A stretch of DNA of 14,961 bases from Dysgonamonadaceae bacterium (GTDB lineage Bacteria > Bacteroidota > Bacteroidia > Bacteroidales > Azobacteroidaceae). The position numbers and the translations under genes are program-made. Under the pieces are notes generated by a model. It did not search any database. It saw only the letters and a list, made by a program, of their open reading frames with translations, and was not told the origin of the DNA. This document shows, piece by piece, positions 6,838 to 12,288 of this stretch. The stretch spans positions 1-14,961 of the forward strand of contig JAISKG010000096.1 of the NCBI GenBank assembly GCA_031261015.1. Direction: 5' to 3'. Each line of letters starts with the position of its first letter. Position 1 is the first letter of the stretch.

Positions 6838-6870
6838 CAAACTTACAAAAAAACTTTTCAAAACACCAAA
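6838..6870 (-). promoter_or_regulatory. Possible promoter of the PHP-GT/ppk/ppx operon
   Basis: On the minus strand TTTG (6867-6870) and TAAGTTTG (6838-6845) resemble the Bacteroidota -33 and -7 boxes, but the spacing is 21 nt, longer than at the other promoters here. The 9-mer GTAAGTTTG occurs twice (6838-6846 and 6867-6875), so the match may be partly chance. It would give a leader of about 120 nt. No other good match lies between the receptor gene and 6710. Confidence 0.42.
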
Positions 6871-8870
6871 CTTACCCGCGCCACGAAATTTCGCCCAATA
6901 TTATAAATCCCTTCCTGCTTATATCGCGACAAATGATCGTAATACTGTGCATTAAACAAGTTATTCGCCGCCACATTCAACCGGATGGTTTGTTTTGCTA
7001 ATTTCCAATCCAACAACGCGCCGGCATCGACGACGTGATAAGCGGGAGTAGCCGTTTCGTAAGCCGCCGTCCGATTTTGCGCAAACGATTGCAATCCATG
7101 TAGATAGAACGATATTTTCCGTACATTCTTTTTATCTTGAAAATGAATGCGTACCGTTGCGTTCAGCTTTTGCGAAGGCATCAAAGGCAAGGGGTCGCGC
7201 TCGTCATTCTGCCCGAAAGCGTTGCTGTAAGAGCCTTCCAAATGCAACCAATCCCACGGATGCGGGTGAAAATGAAAACCGGCTTCTCCGCCGTATAAAT
7301 AGGCATCGCCCTGTACGTAATTGTAAACAGGAAAGTCGTCCCGCATTTCGCCGGCAGGTTTTAAATAAATATACCGACGTATATAATTGAAATACGGATT
7401 GACAAACAAAGCCAAATGCTCACTATCGTACCGTAAGGCTACATCCACTTGATAACTGTTTTCTGTTTGAAGTTGCACATTCCCGATTTCGTAACGGTTG
7501 GTTCCCTCATGAACGCCGTCGCTCAGCAACTCAAACATGTTGGGCGCGCGGTAACCCGAAGAAAGATTGGCGCGCAACGACAATTTCCGGTTTAATTGCT
7601 GGTAAACGCCGGTCGAAAAACTGAATGCCGTATAAGACGTTGAAAGCTCCGTGCCGCCGATGTGCCGCCCGTCAACGCGAACGCCCGCCTGCCAGTAGGA
7701 TTTTCCGGAATAATAGTAATCCGACATCACGAAAACTCCTGCATCCGTAGTAGTTGCATCGGGAATCAACTGTTCCTCGCCGCGATTGGCATTGGTTTGG
7801 TACATGCCCTGACTACCGGCAACGAGCGACCAGCGTTCGTTCCACTTCGGCGAATACCATTTGGCATTGTACGACCACGTTCCCAGATTCATGTTTAAGC
7901 TTGCAACCGCCTCTCCGTCTTCCTCTTCCAATTCTTTCCGATTGTTGAATACATAACCGGCATCGAATTTCAGGCGGGAATTATTTTCAAAAATATAGGT
8001 ATTTTCGGAACTGATAATATGCGTAGTCAAATTTTGATAGGGCGTTTTCGGTTGGCGGCCATTTGGAATCATCGAATCTTCGCCGTCTTCCGTTTCAGTC
8101 AAACCGTATTGTTCATTTAAAAAACTGTATTTCAACGAAGTATTGAATTTTTGTCCCGTATATCCCCACACAGATTTGAAATCGCCGGTGTGGAAGCGGC
8201 TGTTGTTCACGCGGTTGCCGGCACCATCTTGATAATCCTCGTGCGTAGTGTATCCACCGAAAAGATTCCAATGCAAGCGATCTTTCGTAGCTTTCAGCGC
8301 ACCGGTATTACGCCAGCCCTTGGTATTGCTGTTATATTCCGAAGCCGCTGAGCCTTCGAGCGCATTTTCCGCCGCATAACGTTCGTCGCTGAAATAGAGC
8401 ACGCCGCCCAGAGCGTCGCTGCCGTAAAGAAGCGAGGCCGGCCCTTTGATGATTTCCACTTGACCATAGCCGTTTTCGTCGAGTCCCAAGCCGTGCTCGT
8501 CGCCCCATTGCTGGTTTTCCATGCGAACACCTTGCGCAAAAACCGCCACTCTATTACCGCTCAATCCACGGATTACAGGCTTCCCGATGCCTACGCCGGT
8601 GCTGAGATTGCTGACGCCCGCTACGCCCGACAATTTTTCCGCCAACGAAAATCCCTGGATATCCGGATTATTGTAAAGATTGAGTTTTTCGACATTCACC
8701 ACATTTTCGCCTTGCAATTTCAAGCCGCTGCCGGAAACGACAACTTCCTGCAAATCAAAATGAGAGGGTTCGGTGCAAAGGCTGTCCGGAACGACGAAAC
8801 GATTTTGAGCGGAAAGAGTTTGTTGTAGCAAACAACAAGAAAAAATGAGGAAAAGACAAATGAGTCGCAT
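6858..8870 (-). CDS. TonB-dependent outer-membrane receptor, probable cation or metal-complex uptake
   Basis: TonB-dependent receptors import scarce ligands through a 22-strand outer-membrane barrel. I start at the ATG at 8870 because it gives a signal peptide (MRLICLFLIFSCCLLQQTLSA, probable cleavage near 21-22). The frame stays open to 9035, but that extension runs through a palindromic repeat and is not credible. The mature protein has a TonB-box-like LQEVVVSG (40-47), then a plug domain (about 60-160) with PVIRGLSGNRVAVFAQGVRM, NQQWGDEHGLGLDENG, and VEIIKGPASLLYGSDALGGV. The barrel ends in Phe (FVARVSLVF), the usual assembly signal. There is no N-terminal carboxypeptidase-like domain and no SusD partner, so glycan uptake is unlikely. 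The plug resembles the ZnuD-like group, and extracellular-looking loops are acidic (ETEDGED, ELEEEDGE), which hints at a cation. The substrate is not provable from sequence. It is 670 residues and divergent from mgtA. Confidence 0.9.
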   Translation of the reverse strand: MRLICLFLIFSCCLLQQTLSAQNRFVVPDSLCTEPSHFDLQEVVVSGSGLKLQGENVVNVEKLNLYNNPDIQGFSLAEKLSGVAGVSNLSTGVGIGKPVIRGLSGNRVAVFAQGVRMENQQWGDEHGLGLDENGYGQVEIIKGPASLLYGSDALGGVLYFSDERYAAENALEGSAASEYNSNTKGWRNTGALKATKDRLHWNLFGGYTTHEDYQDGAGNRVNNSRFHTGDFKSVWGYTGQKFNTSLKYSFLNEQYGLTETEDGEDSMIPNGRQPKTPYQNLTTHIISSENTYIFENNSRLKFDAGYVFNNRKELEEEDGEAVASLNMNLGTWSYNAKWYSPKWNERWSLVAGSQGMYQTNANRGEEQLIPDATTTDAGVFVMSDYYYSGKSYWQAGVRVDGRHIGGTELSTSYTAFSFSTGVYQQLNRKLSLRANLSSGYRAPNMFELLSDGVHEGTNRYEIGNVQLQTENSYQVDVALRYDSEHLALFVNPYFNYIRRYIYLKPAGEMRDDFPVYNYVQGDAYLYGGEAGFHFHPHPWDWLHLEGSYSNAFGQNDERDPLPLMPSQKLNATVRIHFQDKKNVRKISFYLHGLQSFAQNRTAAYETATPAYHVVDAGALLDWKLAKQTIRLNVAANNLFNAQYYDHLSRYKQEGIYNIGRNFVARVSLVF

Positions 8871-8893: not shown

Positions 8894-8901
8894 CAAAGTT
8901 A
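8894..8901 (-). promoter_or_regulatory. Possible -7 element of the TonB receptor gene
   Basis: On the minus strand TAACTTTG fits the TAnnTTTG box and would give a leader of about 18 nt before the ATG at 8870. The place where a -33 TTG should sit (about 8920-8924) lies inside the palindromic repeat and does not match, so this is an incomplete promoter. Confidence 0.4.
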
Positions 8902-8912
8902 GTGAAATTTTC

Positions 8913-8974
8913 AAACACAGAGGCACAGAGAACACAGAGAATTTCTACTCCGTGTTCTCTGTGCCTCTGTGTTT
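8913..8974. repeat. Palindromic intergenic repeat (27-bp stem, 8-nt loop)
   Basis: The arms 8913-8935 and 8952-8974 are perfect 23-bp inverted copies. The stem extends inward by three more pairs (8937-8939 with 8948-8950) after one mismatch, leaving the 8-nt loop 8940-8947. The sequence is built from CACAGAG/CTCTGTG-type units (GAGGCACAGAGAACAC). From general knowledge, very similar palindromes recur between genes in many unrelated bacterial genomes and often yield spurious predicted proteins with RTQR / SLCLCV-like strings, which are visible here on both strands. It lies exactly between two divergent promoters. Transcribed either way it would form a strong hairpin, but no T-tract suited to termination follows on the minus strand. 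Confidence 0.85.
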
Positions 8975-8986
8975 TTCCACTCTCTC

Positions 8987-9016
8987 TTGCATTTCTCAAA
9001 AAAAACACTACCTTTG
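8987..9016 (+). promoter_or_regulatory. Promoter of the mgtA leader and gene
   Basis: TTG (8987-8989), a 19-nt spacer and TACCTTTG (9009-9016) match the Bacteroidota sigma consensus. Transcription should begin near 9022, which leaves a leader of about 135-150 nt before mgtA. The bases after the -7 box, GCGCCCG, resemble the start region of the rpsP and tRNA-Glu promoters. Confidence 0.75.
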
Positions 9017-9021
9017 CGCCC

Positions 9022-9038
9022 GAATTGTCACACAATTC
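9022..9038 (+). promoter_or_regulatory. Inverted repeat at the predicted mgtA transcription start
   Basis: GAATTGT (9022-9028) and ACAATTC (9032-9038) are perfect inverted copies around a 3-nt centre (CAC). The repeat starts 6 bp after the -7 box, so it covers the expected start of transcription. It could be a repressor operator or a small 5'-end RNA hairpin; no regulator is identified. Confidence 0.5.
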
Positions 9039-9065
9039 ATTTCATATTCACAAAAAATATTCATT

Positions 9066-9122
9066 ATGGACGAAGGACCGTATCCGAGTTGTAGAAAAAC
9101 AAAAGTATTCACGCTTCTGTAA
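9066..9122 (+). CDS. Putative MgtL-like leader peptide upstream of mgtA (18 codons)
   Basis: An ATG at 9066 opens an 18-codon frame ending at TAA (9120-9122), encoding MDEGPYPSCRKTKVFTLL. It follows an A/T-rich stretch (CAAAAAATATTCATT) typical of translation starts in this phylum. It resembles the enterobacterial mgtA leader peptide MgtL ([17 protein letters not shown], from memory) in design: acidic residue at 2, Pro at 5 and 7, Arg at 10, basic residue at 11, same length class and same position before an mgtA gene. In MgtL, acidic/Pro-rich N-terminal codons make the ribosome fall off in low Mg2+. The stop codon lies inside one arm of an RNA stem that competes with the stem masking the mgtA start. 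Such a short ORF can occur by chance; the context is what supports it. Confidence 0.6.
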   Translation: MDEGPYPSCRKTKVFTLL

Positions 9123-9167
9123 GGAGTCCTTTGTAATCTCCTTATAGATCTAATTATGAGGGGATTA
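9116..9167 (+). promoter_or_regulatory. Two-state RNA attenuator masking the mgtA ribosome-binding site
   Basis: Two stems compete for the same strand. Stem A pairs 9116-9126 with 9138-9148 (11 pairs, one G-U, 11-nt loop) and includes the leader-peptide stop codon. Stem B pairs 9134-9147 with 9154-9167 (14 uninterrupted pairs, three G-U, 6-nt loop). Stem B hides GAGGGG (9158-9163), 7 nt before the ATG at 9171, and also hides the alternative ATG at 9156. Both stems use 9138-9147, so they exclude each other. A ribosome at the leader stop codon would cover the 5' arm of stem A and leave stem B free. No U-run follows, so control of translation rather than intrinsic termination is the likelier output. 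The pairing was worked out by hand, base by base. Confidence 0.65.
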
Positions 9168-9170
9168 ATC

Positions 9171-11864
9171 ATGAATGAAAAAAATCTGAAGAAAAAGAAA
9201 AACGCTCTTCAATACGATCGCGAACGAGCTTTTTTCATTGCTACCCAACCGGCAAAAAATGTTTGCGAAATTTTAGAAACTACCCGCGCCGGCTTGCCCG
9301 AAGAGGAAGTCGAAACCCGCAGAAAACAGTACGGCGAGAATGAAATCGCACGCGAACAGCGCGACCGGGGCTTGGTGATGTTTATCAAAACGTTTATCAA
9401 TCCGTTTATCGGTATTTTAATGGGTTTGGCGCTCGTGTCGCTGGTCATCGACGTATGGATGGCCGAACCGCAAGACCGCGAATGGACGACCGTGATCATT
9501 ATCAGCGCAATGGTGCTGCTTAGCGCCATCCTGCGTTTTGTACAGGAACGAAAATCCGACATTGCTTCGGAAGCCTTGCAAAAAATGGTCAACAACACGG
9601 CTTCGGTCTATCGCGACGGCGCAACGGAAAGTCAGGAAATCAACATCGAGGACATCGTTCCGGGCGACGTCGTCTATCTGGCCGCCGGCGATATGATTCC
9701 TGCCGACATGCGCATCATCGAATCCAAAGACTTGTTTATCAGCCAATCATCACTCACAGGCGAATCGGATGCCGTCGAAAAAACGCCCGAACTGAACGGC
9801 GACGCCTCGCAACTCAAAAGCATCACCGACTGCAACAATATTAGTTTCATGGGATCGAATGTGGTGAGCGGCTCGGCCATCGGAATCGTTTTTGCCACCG
9901 GACAATCGACCTATTTAGGAACGATTGCGAAAAGCCTCACCGGCGTGCGTGCACAAACGAGTTTCGATATAGGAATCAATAAGGTGAGTTTGCTATTGAT
10001 CCGGTTTATGCTGGTGATGGTTCCGTTTGTCTTCTTAGTCAACGGGATAACCAAGGATGATTGGTTCGACGCTTTCATTTTCGCCATCTCAATCGCCGTA
10101 GGTCTTACGCCCGAAATGTTGCCGATGATCGTGACTTCTAACTTGGCGAAAGGCGCCGTCACGATGTCGAAACGGAAAACGATCGTCAAAAACCTGAATG
10201 CCATCCAGAGTTTCGGCGCAATGAATATTCTTTGTACCGATAAAACCGGCACGCTTACGCACGATAAAATTATCTTGGAACGCTACTTAAATGTGGCCGG
10301 CAAGGAAGACATCCGCGTGCTGCGCCAAGCGTATTTCAACAGTTTTTTTCAAACGGGACTGAAAAATTTGATGGACAAAGCTATTTTGTCGCACGTCAAA
10401 GAATTAGGTTATGAAAATCTGGAAGAACAATACAAAAAAATCGACGAAATTCCTTTCGATTTTTCGCGTCGCCGCATGTCGGTCGTGATCGAAGACAGCA
10501 ACGGCCAACGGCAAATCATCACCAAAGGTGCGATCGAAGAAATGCTTGCTATCTGCTCTTATGCCGAATACAATGGTAAAATTTTGCCTATGACGCAGGA
10601 ACTTCGCGAAATGGTTTTGCGCGAAAGCAACGCTATGAACGACGGGGGGATGCGCGTGCTGGGTGTGGCGCAAAGAAACTGGATCGAAAAAAATCATTCT
10701 TTTGCCGTGGAAGATGAATCGGACATGGTGCTGATCGGGTTCCTCGCTTTCCTCGATCCTCCGAAAGAATCGGCCGAAAGAGCGATCAATCAATTGCATG
10801 CGCACGGAGTAGAAGTAAAAGTTTTGTCGGGCGACAACGAAGCAGTGGTGAAAGCGATCTGCCGCCAAGTCGGCGTGGATACCACTTTTACTTTAGATGG
10901 CGGCGAAATCGAGACGATGAGCGACGAAGCTTTGAAGGAACGTATCGGCGAAGTGAAAATTTTCGCGAAGCTCACGCCAATGCAGAAAACCCGCATTATC
11001 ACGATGTTGCAAGAGCAAGGAAATACGGTTGGCTTTTTGGGCGACGGCATCAATGACGCTTCGGCCTTGCGCCAATCCGACATCGGTATTTCGGTCGATA
11101 CGGCTGTCGATATTGCCAAGGAAGCTGCCGATATTATCCTCTTGGAAAAAGATTTAATGGTGCTCGAAGAAGGCGTAATCGAAGGACGCAAGATTTTCGG
11201 CAACATCATGAAATATATTAAAATGACGGCAAGTTCCAATTTCGGAAACATGTTCAGCGTATTGGCGGCGAGCGCATTTTTGCCGTTCCTGCCGATGTTG
11301 CCTATTCAACTCCTGATACAGAACTTGCTGTACGATACGTCTCAAACCGCCATTCCTTTCGATCGTGTGGATAAGGAATATTTGAAGAAACCGCGCAAAT
11401 GGGATGCTTCCGATTTGAGTCGCTTCATGATTTTCATTGGCCCGATCAGTTCGATCTTCGACATAACCACTTATCTGTTAATGTATTTCTTGATCGGACC
11501 GATGGTTTTCGGCGGCGTTGCCTACCATGTATTGGACGGCGCACAGCAACTCGAATTTGCGAAACTGTTCCAGTCCGGCTGGTTTATCGAAGGCCTGCTG
11601 TCGCAAACGCTGATTGTGCACATGATACGCACGCGCAAAATACCGTTTATTCAAAGTAGCGCGTCTTTGCCGGTAACGCTGTCAACGCTGGCGGTCATGG
11701 CTGTGGGTATCGTGCTTCCGTTTACGGGACTTGGATCGCAAATCGGATTGGTGCCGCTACCGTTCAGCTATTTTCCATGGTTAATTGCTACTTTACTATG
11801 TTATTGCGTTTTAACGCAAGTGGTTAAAACTTGGTACATCCGAAAGTTTAGCCGGTGGTTATAA
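9171..11864 (+). CDS. mgtA: Magnesium-transporting P-type ATPase
   Basis: MgtA is a P3B-type ATPase of the inner membrane that imports Mg2+ when it is scarce. With the ATG at 9171 the product is 897 residues; a second ATG at 9156 would add MRGLI. I prefer 9171 because GAGGGG lies 7 nt upstream. Counting from 9171, the actuator loop has TGES at 196-199, helix 4 has GLTPEMLPMIVTSNLAKGA (311-329), the phosphorylation site is CTDKTGTLT (355-363) with Asp357, the nucleotide domain has TKGAIEEML (452-460) and the hinge GDGIND (624-629). The IQNLLYDTSQTAIPFD stretch (716-731) and the following KKPRKWD and GPISSIFDITT are the signature of MgtA and separate it from Ca2+ or heavy-metal pumps. There are about ten membrane helices and a Lys-rich N-terminus (KNLKKKKN). 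No key residue is missing. Confidence 0.95.
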   Translation: MNEKNLKKKKNALQYDRERAFFIATQPAKNVCEILETTRAGLPEEEVETRRKQYGENEIAREQRDRGLVMFIKTFINPFIGILMGLALVSLVIDVWMAEPQDREWTTVIIISAMVLLSAILRFVQERKSDIASEALQKMVNNTASVYRDGATESQEINIEDIVPGDVVYLAAGDMIPADMRIIESKDLFISQSSLTGESDAVEKTPELNGDASQLKSITDCNNISFMGSNVVSGSAIGIVFATGQSTYLGTIAKSLTGVRAQTSFDIGINKVSLLLIRFMLVMVPFVFLVNGITKDDWFDAFIFAISIAVGLTPEMLPMIVTSNLAKGAVTMSKRKTIVKNLNAIQSFGAMNILCTDKTGTLTHDKIILERYLNVAGKEDIRVLRQAYFNSFFQTGLKNLMDKAILSHVKELGYENLEEQYKKIDEIPFDFSRRRMSVVIEDSNGQRQIITKGAIEEMLAICSYAEYNGKILPMTQELREMVLRESNAMNDGGMRVLGVAQRNWIEKNHSFAVEDESDMVLIGFLAFLDPPKESAERAINQLHAHGVEVKVLSGDNEAVVKAICRQVGVDTTFTLDGGEIETMSDEALKERIGEVKIFAKLTPMQKTRIITMLQEQGNTVGFLGDGINDASALRQSDIGISVDTAVDIAKEAADIILLEKDLMVLEEGVIEGRKIFGNIMKYIKMTASSNFGNMFSVLAASAFLPFLPMLPIQLLIQNLLYDTSQTAIPFDRVDKEYLKKPRKWDASDLSRFMIFIGPISSIFDITTYLLMYFLIGPMVFGGVAYHVLDGAQQLEFAKLFQSGWFIEGLLSQTLIVHMIRTRKIPFIQSSASLPVTLSTLAVMAVGIVLPFTGLGSQIGLVPLPFSYFPWLIATLLCYCVLTQVVKTWYIRKFSRWL

Positions 11865-12216: not shown

Positions 12217-12288
12217 TAGTCCATAGGGGAGTCGAACCCCTCTTTCAAGAATGAAAATCTTGCGTCCTAACCGATAGACGAATGGACC
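12217..12288 (-). tRNA. tRNA-Glu (anticodon UUC)
   Basis: The minus strand folds into a 72-nt cloverleaf. The acceptor strands are GGTCCAT and ATGGACT (first pair G-U), discriminator A. The D stem is GTCT/GGAC. The anticodon stem CAAGA/TCTTG holds the loop TTTTCAT, anticodon TTC. The T arm is AGGGG-TTCGACT-CCCCT. No CCA is encoded; the gene is followed by CA. It lies upstream of rpsT. Confidence 0.96.

Follow-up and report, generated by a model that had tools for sequence, protein, structure and literature searches.

The mgtL leader, which precedes mgtA in E. coli and Salmonella, was reportedly described by Gall in 2016 and by Chadani in 2017. Its peptide carries an acid/proline motif (EPDP) right after the start; according to the excerpt of PMC11282234 that we draw on, translation of MgtL is aborted at low Mg2+, which raises mgtA, and the output is Rho-dependent termination. 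A second system, mgtQ of Salmonella, is located between mgtC and mgtB. As described in the sections of PMC8092293 cited here, it is a short uORF with acidic codons near the start (Asp2 and Glu5), with stems 1:2 and 3:4 opposed to stem 2:3; stem 3:4 masks the ribosome binding site (RBS) of the Mg2+ transporter gene mgtB, and control is exerted at translation, opened by ribosome destabilisation. For corL, the leader of corA in E. coli, the relevant part of PMC11552253 reports uORF translation that is inverse to corA and a Mg2+ response through the leader, with Rho in the output, a peptide with fewer acids and prolines, and a UUG start. Other Mg2+-related leaders are the M-box (ykoK) riboswitches, including the translational M-box of M. 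tuberculosis, which show alternative masking of the Shine-Dalgarno (SD) sequence and require an M-box aptamer (PMC12810186, in part), the mgtE motif, a riboswitch candidate that is not a uORF and places the SD in a stem before a gene called mgtE, reported only from Thioalkalivibrio in the cited portion of PMC11109978, and the corA motif of Gammaproteobacteria (PMC6429828, in part).

Here we describe a leader of mgtA in a stretch of 14,961 nucleotides from a Dysgonamonadaceae bacterium (the window), which belongs to contig C19 of a 2.0 Mb draft assembly with a completeness of 72%. A preliminary description had ascribed to it the logic of enterobacterial mgtA. The locus is closer to mgtQ-mgtB as portrayed in the cited sections of PMC8092293, with a short uORF, acidic codons near its start, pairings 1:2 and 3:4 opposed to 2:3 and a masked RBS of a Mg2+ transporter gene. 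Whereas mgtQ is intergenic, serves one gene and belongs to the Enterobacterales according to the same sections, the leaders described below are 5′ leaders behind a promoter motif of their own, occur with several transporter genes in Bacteroidota, and have a uORF that stops within segment 2 or shortly before it. They also have an acid/proline motif of the destabilising type known from mgtL, which is a likeness of motif, not homology. The resemblance to mgtQ, mgtL, corL, the M-box and the mgtE motif appears to be one of logic, compared by description only; unlike M-box leaders, the window leader has no detected M-box aptamer. We infer an origin independent of the enterobacterial systems because the phylum is distant. 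Searches of the open-licence literature yielded no account of such a leader in Bacteroidota.

Layout of the mgtA leader

The elements of the leader are listed in Table 1. The sequence TACCTTTG is labelled a promoter motif after what we take to be the Bacteroidota promoter consensus, and from its position the transcript is predicted to start at about 9022-9025. The product of mgtA matches TIGR01524 (1233 bits, cut-off 611) and NF011702 (1260 bits, cut-off 975). GAGGGG lies 7 nt 5′ of ATG 9171, which is favoured as the start because of this spacing; ATG 9156 falls within stem 3:4.

Table 1. Elements of the mgtA leader and their positions in the window; segment and promoter assignments are predictions
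Feature	Position	Strand	Remarks
Putative promoter motif, Bacteroidota type	8987..9016	+	TTG 8987-8989, 19 nt, TACCTTTG 9009-9016
uORF MDEGPYPSCRKTKVFTLL	9066..9122	+	stop TAA 9120-9122; window sequence
Segment 1, uORF codons 2-5	9070..9078	+	pairs with 9126-9134 (1:2); seen in MFE
Segment 2	9116..9134	+	9116-9126, uORF end and stop, partner of segment 3; 9126-9134, linker, partner of segment 1
Segment 3, anti-Shine-Dalgarno strand	9134..9148	+	common to both stems
Segment 4	9154..9167	+	GAGGGG 9158-9163 and ATG 9156 inside; pairs with segment 3 (3:4, OFF)
mgtA, Mg2+-translocating P-type ATPase	9171..11864	+	897 aa from ATG 9171; 902 aa from ATG 9156

The two stems proposed in the preliminary description were recovered exactly. 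A 14-pair stem joins 9134-9147 (TAATCTCCTTATAG) to 9154-9167 (TTATGAGGGGATTA) with three G-U pairs, and an 11-pair stem joins 9116-9126 (TCTGTAAGGAG) to 9138-9148 (CTCCTTATAGA) with one. They have a central strand in common (overlap 9138-9147) and exclude each other. As had been claimed, the first (3:4) masks GAGGGG together with one candidate start, ATG 9156, and the 9116-9126 strand of the alternative (2:3) contains the uORF stop. The view that this geometry is unlikely to be chance is borne out by dinucleotide shuffling of 9022-9173: an exclusive 14/11 stem pair arose in none of 2000 shuffles, a helix of at least 14 pairs in five, and a weaker exclusive 9/9 pair in 43. The MFE of 9022-9200, a fold that had been suggested as a check, is better than that of all 200 shuffles (z −2.98). 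This structure holds stem 3:4 and an extra stem in which uORF codons 2-5 (9070-9078) pair with the linker behind the stop (9126-9134). The earlier two-stem picture is therefore correct in its stems and incomplete in that it missed this pairing 1:2; it also missed that the leader is a family found across several transporter types. In the window the hairpins 2:3 and 3:4 are almost equal in energy (−13.5 and −13.9 kcal/mol), and 1:2 amounts to −13.4 kcal/mol.

Further upstream, 8920-8967 is a long near-perfect inverted repeat (GAGGCACAGAGAACAC...), terminator-like on the − strand and lying between mgtA and a divergent TonB-receptor-like gene. The latter is a TonB-dependent-receptor-like ORF by eye (6858-8870, − strand), the listed start of which (9035) overlaps the mgtA promoter; judged from sequence, an ATG near 8870 is the likelier start.

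A leader family before Mg2+ transporter genes

Among 38 genomes of the genus, MgtA was found at E ≤ 1e-150 in one, the window's own; because MgtA is so rare in the genus, relatives of the leader were sought through the uORF and other genes. The nearest mgtA among the named-genome contigs (L031, Paludibacter sp. MAG, 82%) has a uORF, MNEDPYPSCSKKVFILL, and both stems. Apart from the window, 21 mgtA loci of Bacteroidales were read over 330 nt upstream (L031-L049, L100, L107). L031 alone has the leader, and its absence from the other 20 counts against the attenuator explanation. L033 and L107 were left out of the family since they carry a different, longer uORF leader.

The leader before mgtA of L033 and L107 (match start 1501) is about 260 nt long, with a uORF MDSVPR(K/E)S... 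and a second uORF ending in LSAFT. By eye, the end of the first uORF is complementary to the sequence just downstream; this is perhaps a second acid/proline attenuator type. Other mgtA loci (L034, L035, L037-L048, L100; from Bacteroides, Parabacteroides, Tannerellaceae, Dysgonomonas and others) are without uORF leader. By eye, the region 50-200 nt upstream of their mgtA contains TCTAA repeated in tandem at a spacing of about 11 nt, followed by a TAnnTTTG-like promoter. In several of them the repeats follow a histidine-kinase-like reading frame, and they are likely a response-regulator site.

A degenerate peptide-start pattern matched in 3 of 45 genomes of the family and in 10 of 393 of the order. 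Eight of the 11 places in the order were true, before mgtE, corA or mgtA, and three (L115, L117, L123) were dropped, being without ATG and without context; the reversed pattern, used as control, fired in 2 of the 393 genomes. When the 393 order genomes were searched with the MgtE protein from L122, 54 of them had matches at E ≤ 1e-60; 30 of the 56 matches were fetched, and one further match (genome G231) was read later. The uORF leader was present at 18 of the 30 fetched mgtE loci. The 12 without such a leader were left out before alignment and count against the attenuator explanation.

The first 24 leaders were chosen blind to structure: the window, L031 by MgtA, four by the peptide pattern, and 18 by MgtE with the uORF picked by eye. 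A covariance model, R1, was built with stem 2:3, and the last 16 leaders came through it. R1 matched at least 35 of the 393 order genomes, at one place each, and, in 395 genomes across the phylum, at least the window and, from outside the order, a single genome (G813, two copies), all of these being lower bounds because the searches ran with stricter filters. The window scores 92.6 bits over its whole length against R1, being itself one of the 24 training sequences; the next match in its genome (E 2.24) was rejected as a second copy. A gene of Mg2+ transporter type follows all 35 order matches and both matches in G813. With L031, L112 and L113 added to the R1 matches (alignment A2), the family comprises 40 loci, namely 35 from the order genomes (25 families), two from G813 and three from the other searches. 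In 35 of them TAnnTTTG occurs 12-110 nt 5′ of the uORF, as compared to a mean of 2.6 and a maximum of 8 with shuffled upstream DNA (200 rounds).

The genes behind the 40 leaders are mgtE (21), corA (15), mgtA (3) and an MgtE_N-CBS/Nramp operon (1, L187). By BLAST, the gene behind every leader is related to MgtE, CorA or MgtA, and Pfam was run on seven. At L187 the first gene codes for a PRC-MgtE_N-CBS protein, which matches MgtE at 28% (E 2e-26), and the next for an Nramp transporter.

The position of the leader (L187:382-488) before this gene and Nramp (also L191:277-1524) is a hint that the Nramp protein may carry Mg2+. In G813, the sole genome outside the order with the leader in the phylum sample, L184 and L185 each precede a corA of their own. 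The window's genome also has a CorA fragment at a contig end (G000:C251:1-633), with any leader beyond the contig, and a second cation P-type ATPase (G000:C17:1294-3495).

Covariation of the exclusive stems

Covariance analysis in related genomes, as the preliminary description had proposed, revealed compensatory changes in both stems, in the 24 structure-blind leaders as well as in all 40. The 24, gathered by protein or peptide, were aligned with MAFFT (A1). In stem 2:3, 91.2% of the cells are paired (42-55% in slid registers) and double changes occur at 7 of 11 pairs, which 2 of 500 shuffles reach; the covariation score was reached by none of 500. The core of stem 3:4 is 94.4% paired (slid registers 46-60%) with double changes at 5 of 9 pairs, and none of 500 shuffles did as well on any measure; its eight double-change cells, however, were equalled or exceeded in two slid registers (10 and 8), which counts against it.

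With all 40 leaders, 88.1% of the cells of stem 2:3 are paired (slid controls 44-53%), double changes occur at 9 of 11 pairs (reached by 4 of 500 shuffles) and no shuffle of 500 reached the covariation score; because R1 uses stem 2:3, these tests, and those of 1:2 below, lean to 2:3 for the last 16 leaders. The nine-pair core of stem 3:4 is 91.0% paired (slid controls 49-60%) and has double changes at 8 of 9 pairs; neither this number nor the covariation score was reached in 500 shuffles. L118 (misplaced in A2), L189 and L190 are poorly aligned. By eye both pairings are kept in L118, with very divergent letters, and in L183, L186 and L187. An automatic best-helix search confused the segments and was discarded. 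The pattern suggests that the mutually exclusive pairings 2:3 and 3:4, the latter masking the RBS, have both been conserved by evolution.

Peptide and stop codon of the uORF

The uORFs have lengths of 10-21 and in most of the 40 leaders start with M-[DE]-[DE]-x-P. Pro5 is present in all 40, encoded by four codons (CCG 23, CCT 8, CCC 6, CCA 3), and an acid is found at position 3 in 39, at position 2 in 34, and at two or more of positions 2-4 in 39, figures that are inflated because the leaders were partly found by peptide; the 18 mgtE leaders were anchored on protein but picked by eye for a uORF. At codons 3 and 5 the first and second bases are 97-100% constant, whereas the commonest third base accounts for only 65% and 57%. 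Such variation, in which the third base changes and the acid or proline stays, looks like that of coding sequence. The C-terminal parts are without conservation. In 25 of the 40 uORFs the fourth residue is Gly, and many have Pro only at position 5; the acid/proline run is therefore shorter than EPDP, which is a point against. In the window uORF, D2, E3, G4, P5, Y6 and P7 are proposed as candidate sensor codons.

The same four-segment device could instead respond to stalling at proline or acidic codons, whether through EF-P, through an ABC-F factor or through the levels of charged tRNA-Pro/Asp, as in classical attenuation. Pro5 as the single invariant codon would fit this, and so would the reported action of EttA on MgtL (PMC11282234) and two Salmonella papers that reportedly concern EF-P and Mg2+ transporter genes (PMC6460261, PMC5299641). 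We consider it unlikely, since the acids at positions 2-3 are conserved nearly as much as Pro5, Pro-Pro occurs in none of the 40 uORFs, and the genes behind the leaders are relatives of MgtE, CorA and MgtA, not amino acid genes.

Relative to the start of segment 2, the position of the uORF stop ranges from 9 nt upstream to 4 nt within the segment (19 in L118, which is misaligned); in the window it is located 48 nt 5′ of ATG 9171. To model a ribosome on the stop, its leading edge was placed 16 nt downstream of the base that opens the P-site codon. Such a ribosome covers 5-11 nt of segment 2 in all 40 leaders and never extends beyond the first aligned base of segment 3, the alignment of L118 being poor. 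In this model the end of the uORF would overlap or reach one strand of the alternative stem.

These features bear on the possibility that the RNA is a direct Mg2+ riboswitch acting through the balance of 2:3 and 3:4, with a uORF that is incidental or sets the basal level only. Small ionic effects could indeed tip the near-isoenergetic hairpins of the window, but the conserved peptide start with its third-base variation and a stop reaching segment 2 point to translation, and Rfam offers no known RNA. At the gathering score the window leader had no match, the single match in the window being a tRNA (12217-12288), and at E up to 5 only three unrelated families, and no M-box, appeared in 8980-9260. 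An M-box or other known RNA was rejected because no leader was matched when the window, 12 loci and a further 20 were scanned; within the family, the leader was unmatched in the 31 of 40 loci scanned whole (the window and 30 of the 39 others). We regard a direct riboswitch as very improbable.

A third pairing between uORF codons and linker

Across the 40 leaders, codons 2-6 paired with their own linker have a mean energy of −10.03 kcal/mol, versus −8.36 with swapped and −6.19 (sd 0.36) with shuffled linkers, and none of 10000 permutations was as good as the own linkers. The last 16 leaders gave a weaker, marginal result (−9.48 own, −8.58 swapped; 253 of 10000 permutations), and in the control with codons 7-11 the values were −3.60 and −3.00. 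Pairing 1:2 is weak in L118, L128, L134, L180, L185 and L187 and nearly absent in L134, L180, L185 and L128. From the own-linker energies and permutations we conclude that 1:2 is real for the leader family, yet not universal. The pairing of uORF codons 2-6 with the linker after the stop would complete a four-segment attenuator, weakly so in some leaders.

Proposed mechanism and modelled folding

Given the observed sequence, the pairings and their covariation, the constraint on the peptide, the association with transporter genes and the position of the stop, we consider it probable, from sequence and modelling, that the leader is a translational attenuator which senses Mg2+ via the ribosome. 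Translation of the uORF, Mg2+ as the signal, drop-off as the sensor and an output at translation are the parts that we infer. With ample Mg2+, ribosomes would complete the uORF, occupy its stop and cover segment 2, so that segment 3 would pair with segment 4 (the mgtA RBS) and mgtA would be off. At low Mg2+, ribosomes would be destabilised on Met-Asp-Glu-Gly-Pro-Tyr-Pro and would either fall off or be retained at segment 1. Segment 2 would then be free to pair with segment 3 during transcription, leaving segment 4 open and mgtA translated. If the uORF is untranslated, 1:2 and 3:4 should yield a low basal level of mgtA.

Folding models of the 40 leaders agree with parts of this scheme. At equilibrium the full-length leader without ribosome has mean values of 0.85 for 3:4 and 0.08 for 2:3, which predicts a mostly OFF state for the untranslated leader. 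A ribosome at codon 4 shifts these to 0.59 and 0.33, and a ribosome at the stop to 0.93 and 0.00. With the early ribosome, the SD is more open than in the stop-ribosome state in 35 of 40 leaders and than in the no-ribosome state in 33. When the transcript is cut off directly behind segment 3, 2:3 has means of 0.75 without ribosome, 0.86 with the early ribosome and 0.01 with the ribosome at the stop, and exceeds 0.5 in 33, 39 and none of the 40 leaders, respectively. That 2:3 already forms in truncated transcripts without ribosome counts against a settled role for 1:2. Since the stop ribosome abolishes 2:3, it is the strong gate in the model, and the timing of folding must matter.

These values are in line with the earlier proposal that a ribosome finishing the uORF blocks the alternative and leaves the masking stem, as modelled by 2:3 at 0.01 in truncated and 3:4 at 0.93 in full leaders. 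As for the companion proposal, that early drop-off frees the alternative, the early ribosome raises 2:3 across the modelled leaders, at equilibrium only to a mean of 0.33. The window keeps 3:4 at 0.99 at equilibrium although the modelled ribosome stands as early as codon 4, a result that speaks against switching by equilibrium alone. The ON state of the window therefore needs co-transcriptional folding; on these models, switching would have to be kinetic, or else the model is incomplete.

The short distance between the uORF stop and ATG 9171 could also be read as positive coupling, in which uORF translation opens 3:4 and promotes initiation at mgtA. This seems extremely unlikely, since in none of the 40 leaders does the stop ribosome get past the first aligned base of segment 3, 3:4 stays at 0.93, and the conserved 2:3 would have no purpose.

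As to the output of the attenuator, no terminator-like site was found on the + strand at 8900-9300, and output through an intrinsic terminator was rejected. Together with the lack of an Rfam match this makes translational output, as suggested in the preliminary description, the simplest reading. Termination of transcription by Rho, in place of masked initiation or in addition to it, has its precedent in mgtL and corL, the leaders of mgtA and corA in enterobacteria, according to the cited parts of PMC11282234 and PMC11552253. For the present leaders it is rather improbable: segment 4 is SD-like and in the family alignment ends 2-8 nt before the gene start, a pure Rho device needs neither, and the + strand of the window is free of terminator-like sites over the interval given above.

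Significance

On balance we incline to the view that the translational attenuator is a portable Mg2+ sensor cassette that evolved in Bacteroidota independently of mgtL and mgtQ. The Mg2+-dependent stability of the ribosome would be the sensor and the destabilising codons would themselves be strand 1; the cassette would have moved among genes for unrelated transporter types (MgtE, CorA, MgtA and an MgtE_N-CBS/Nramp operon) and would provide a Mg2+ regulon throughout the order that dispenses with a dedicated protein or riboswitch. To our knowledge, ribosome destabilisation by acidic and proline-containing nascent chains has been known as a Mg2+ sensor only from enterobacteria. If the proposal is true, the occurrence of a covarying leader in 25 sampled families of the order, before mgtE, corA and mgtA as well as an Nramp operon, would make this a general, perhaps convergent strategy. 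It would name a testable Mg2+ regulon for Bacteroidota, and the 40 natural variants are available for finding the codons that sense Mg2+.
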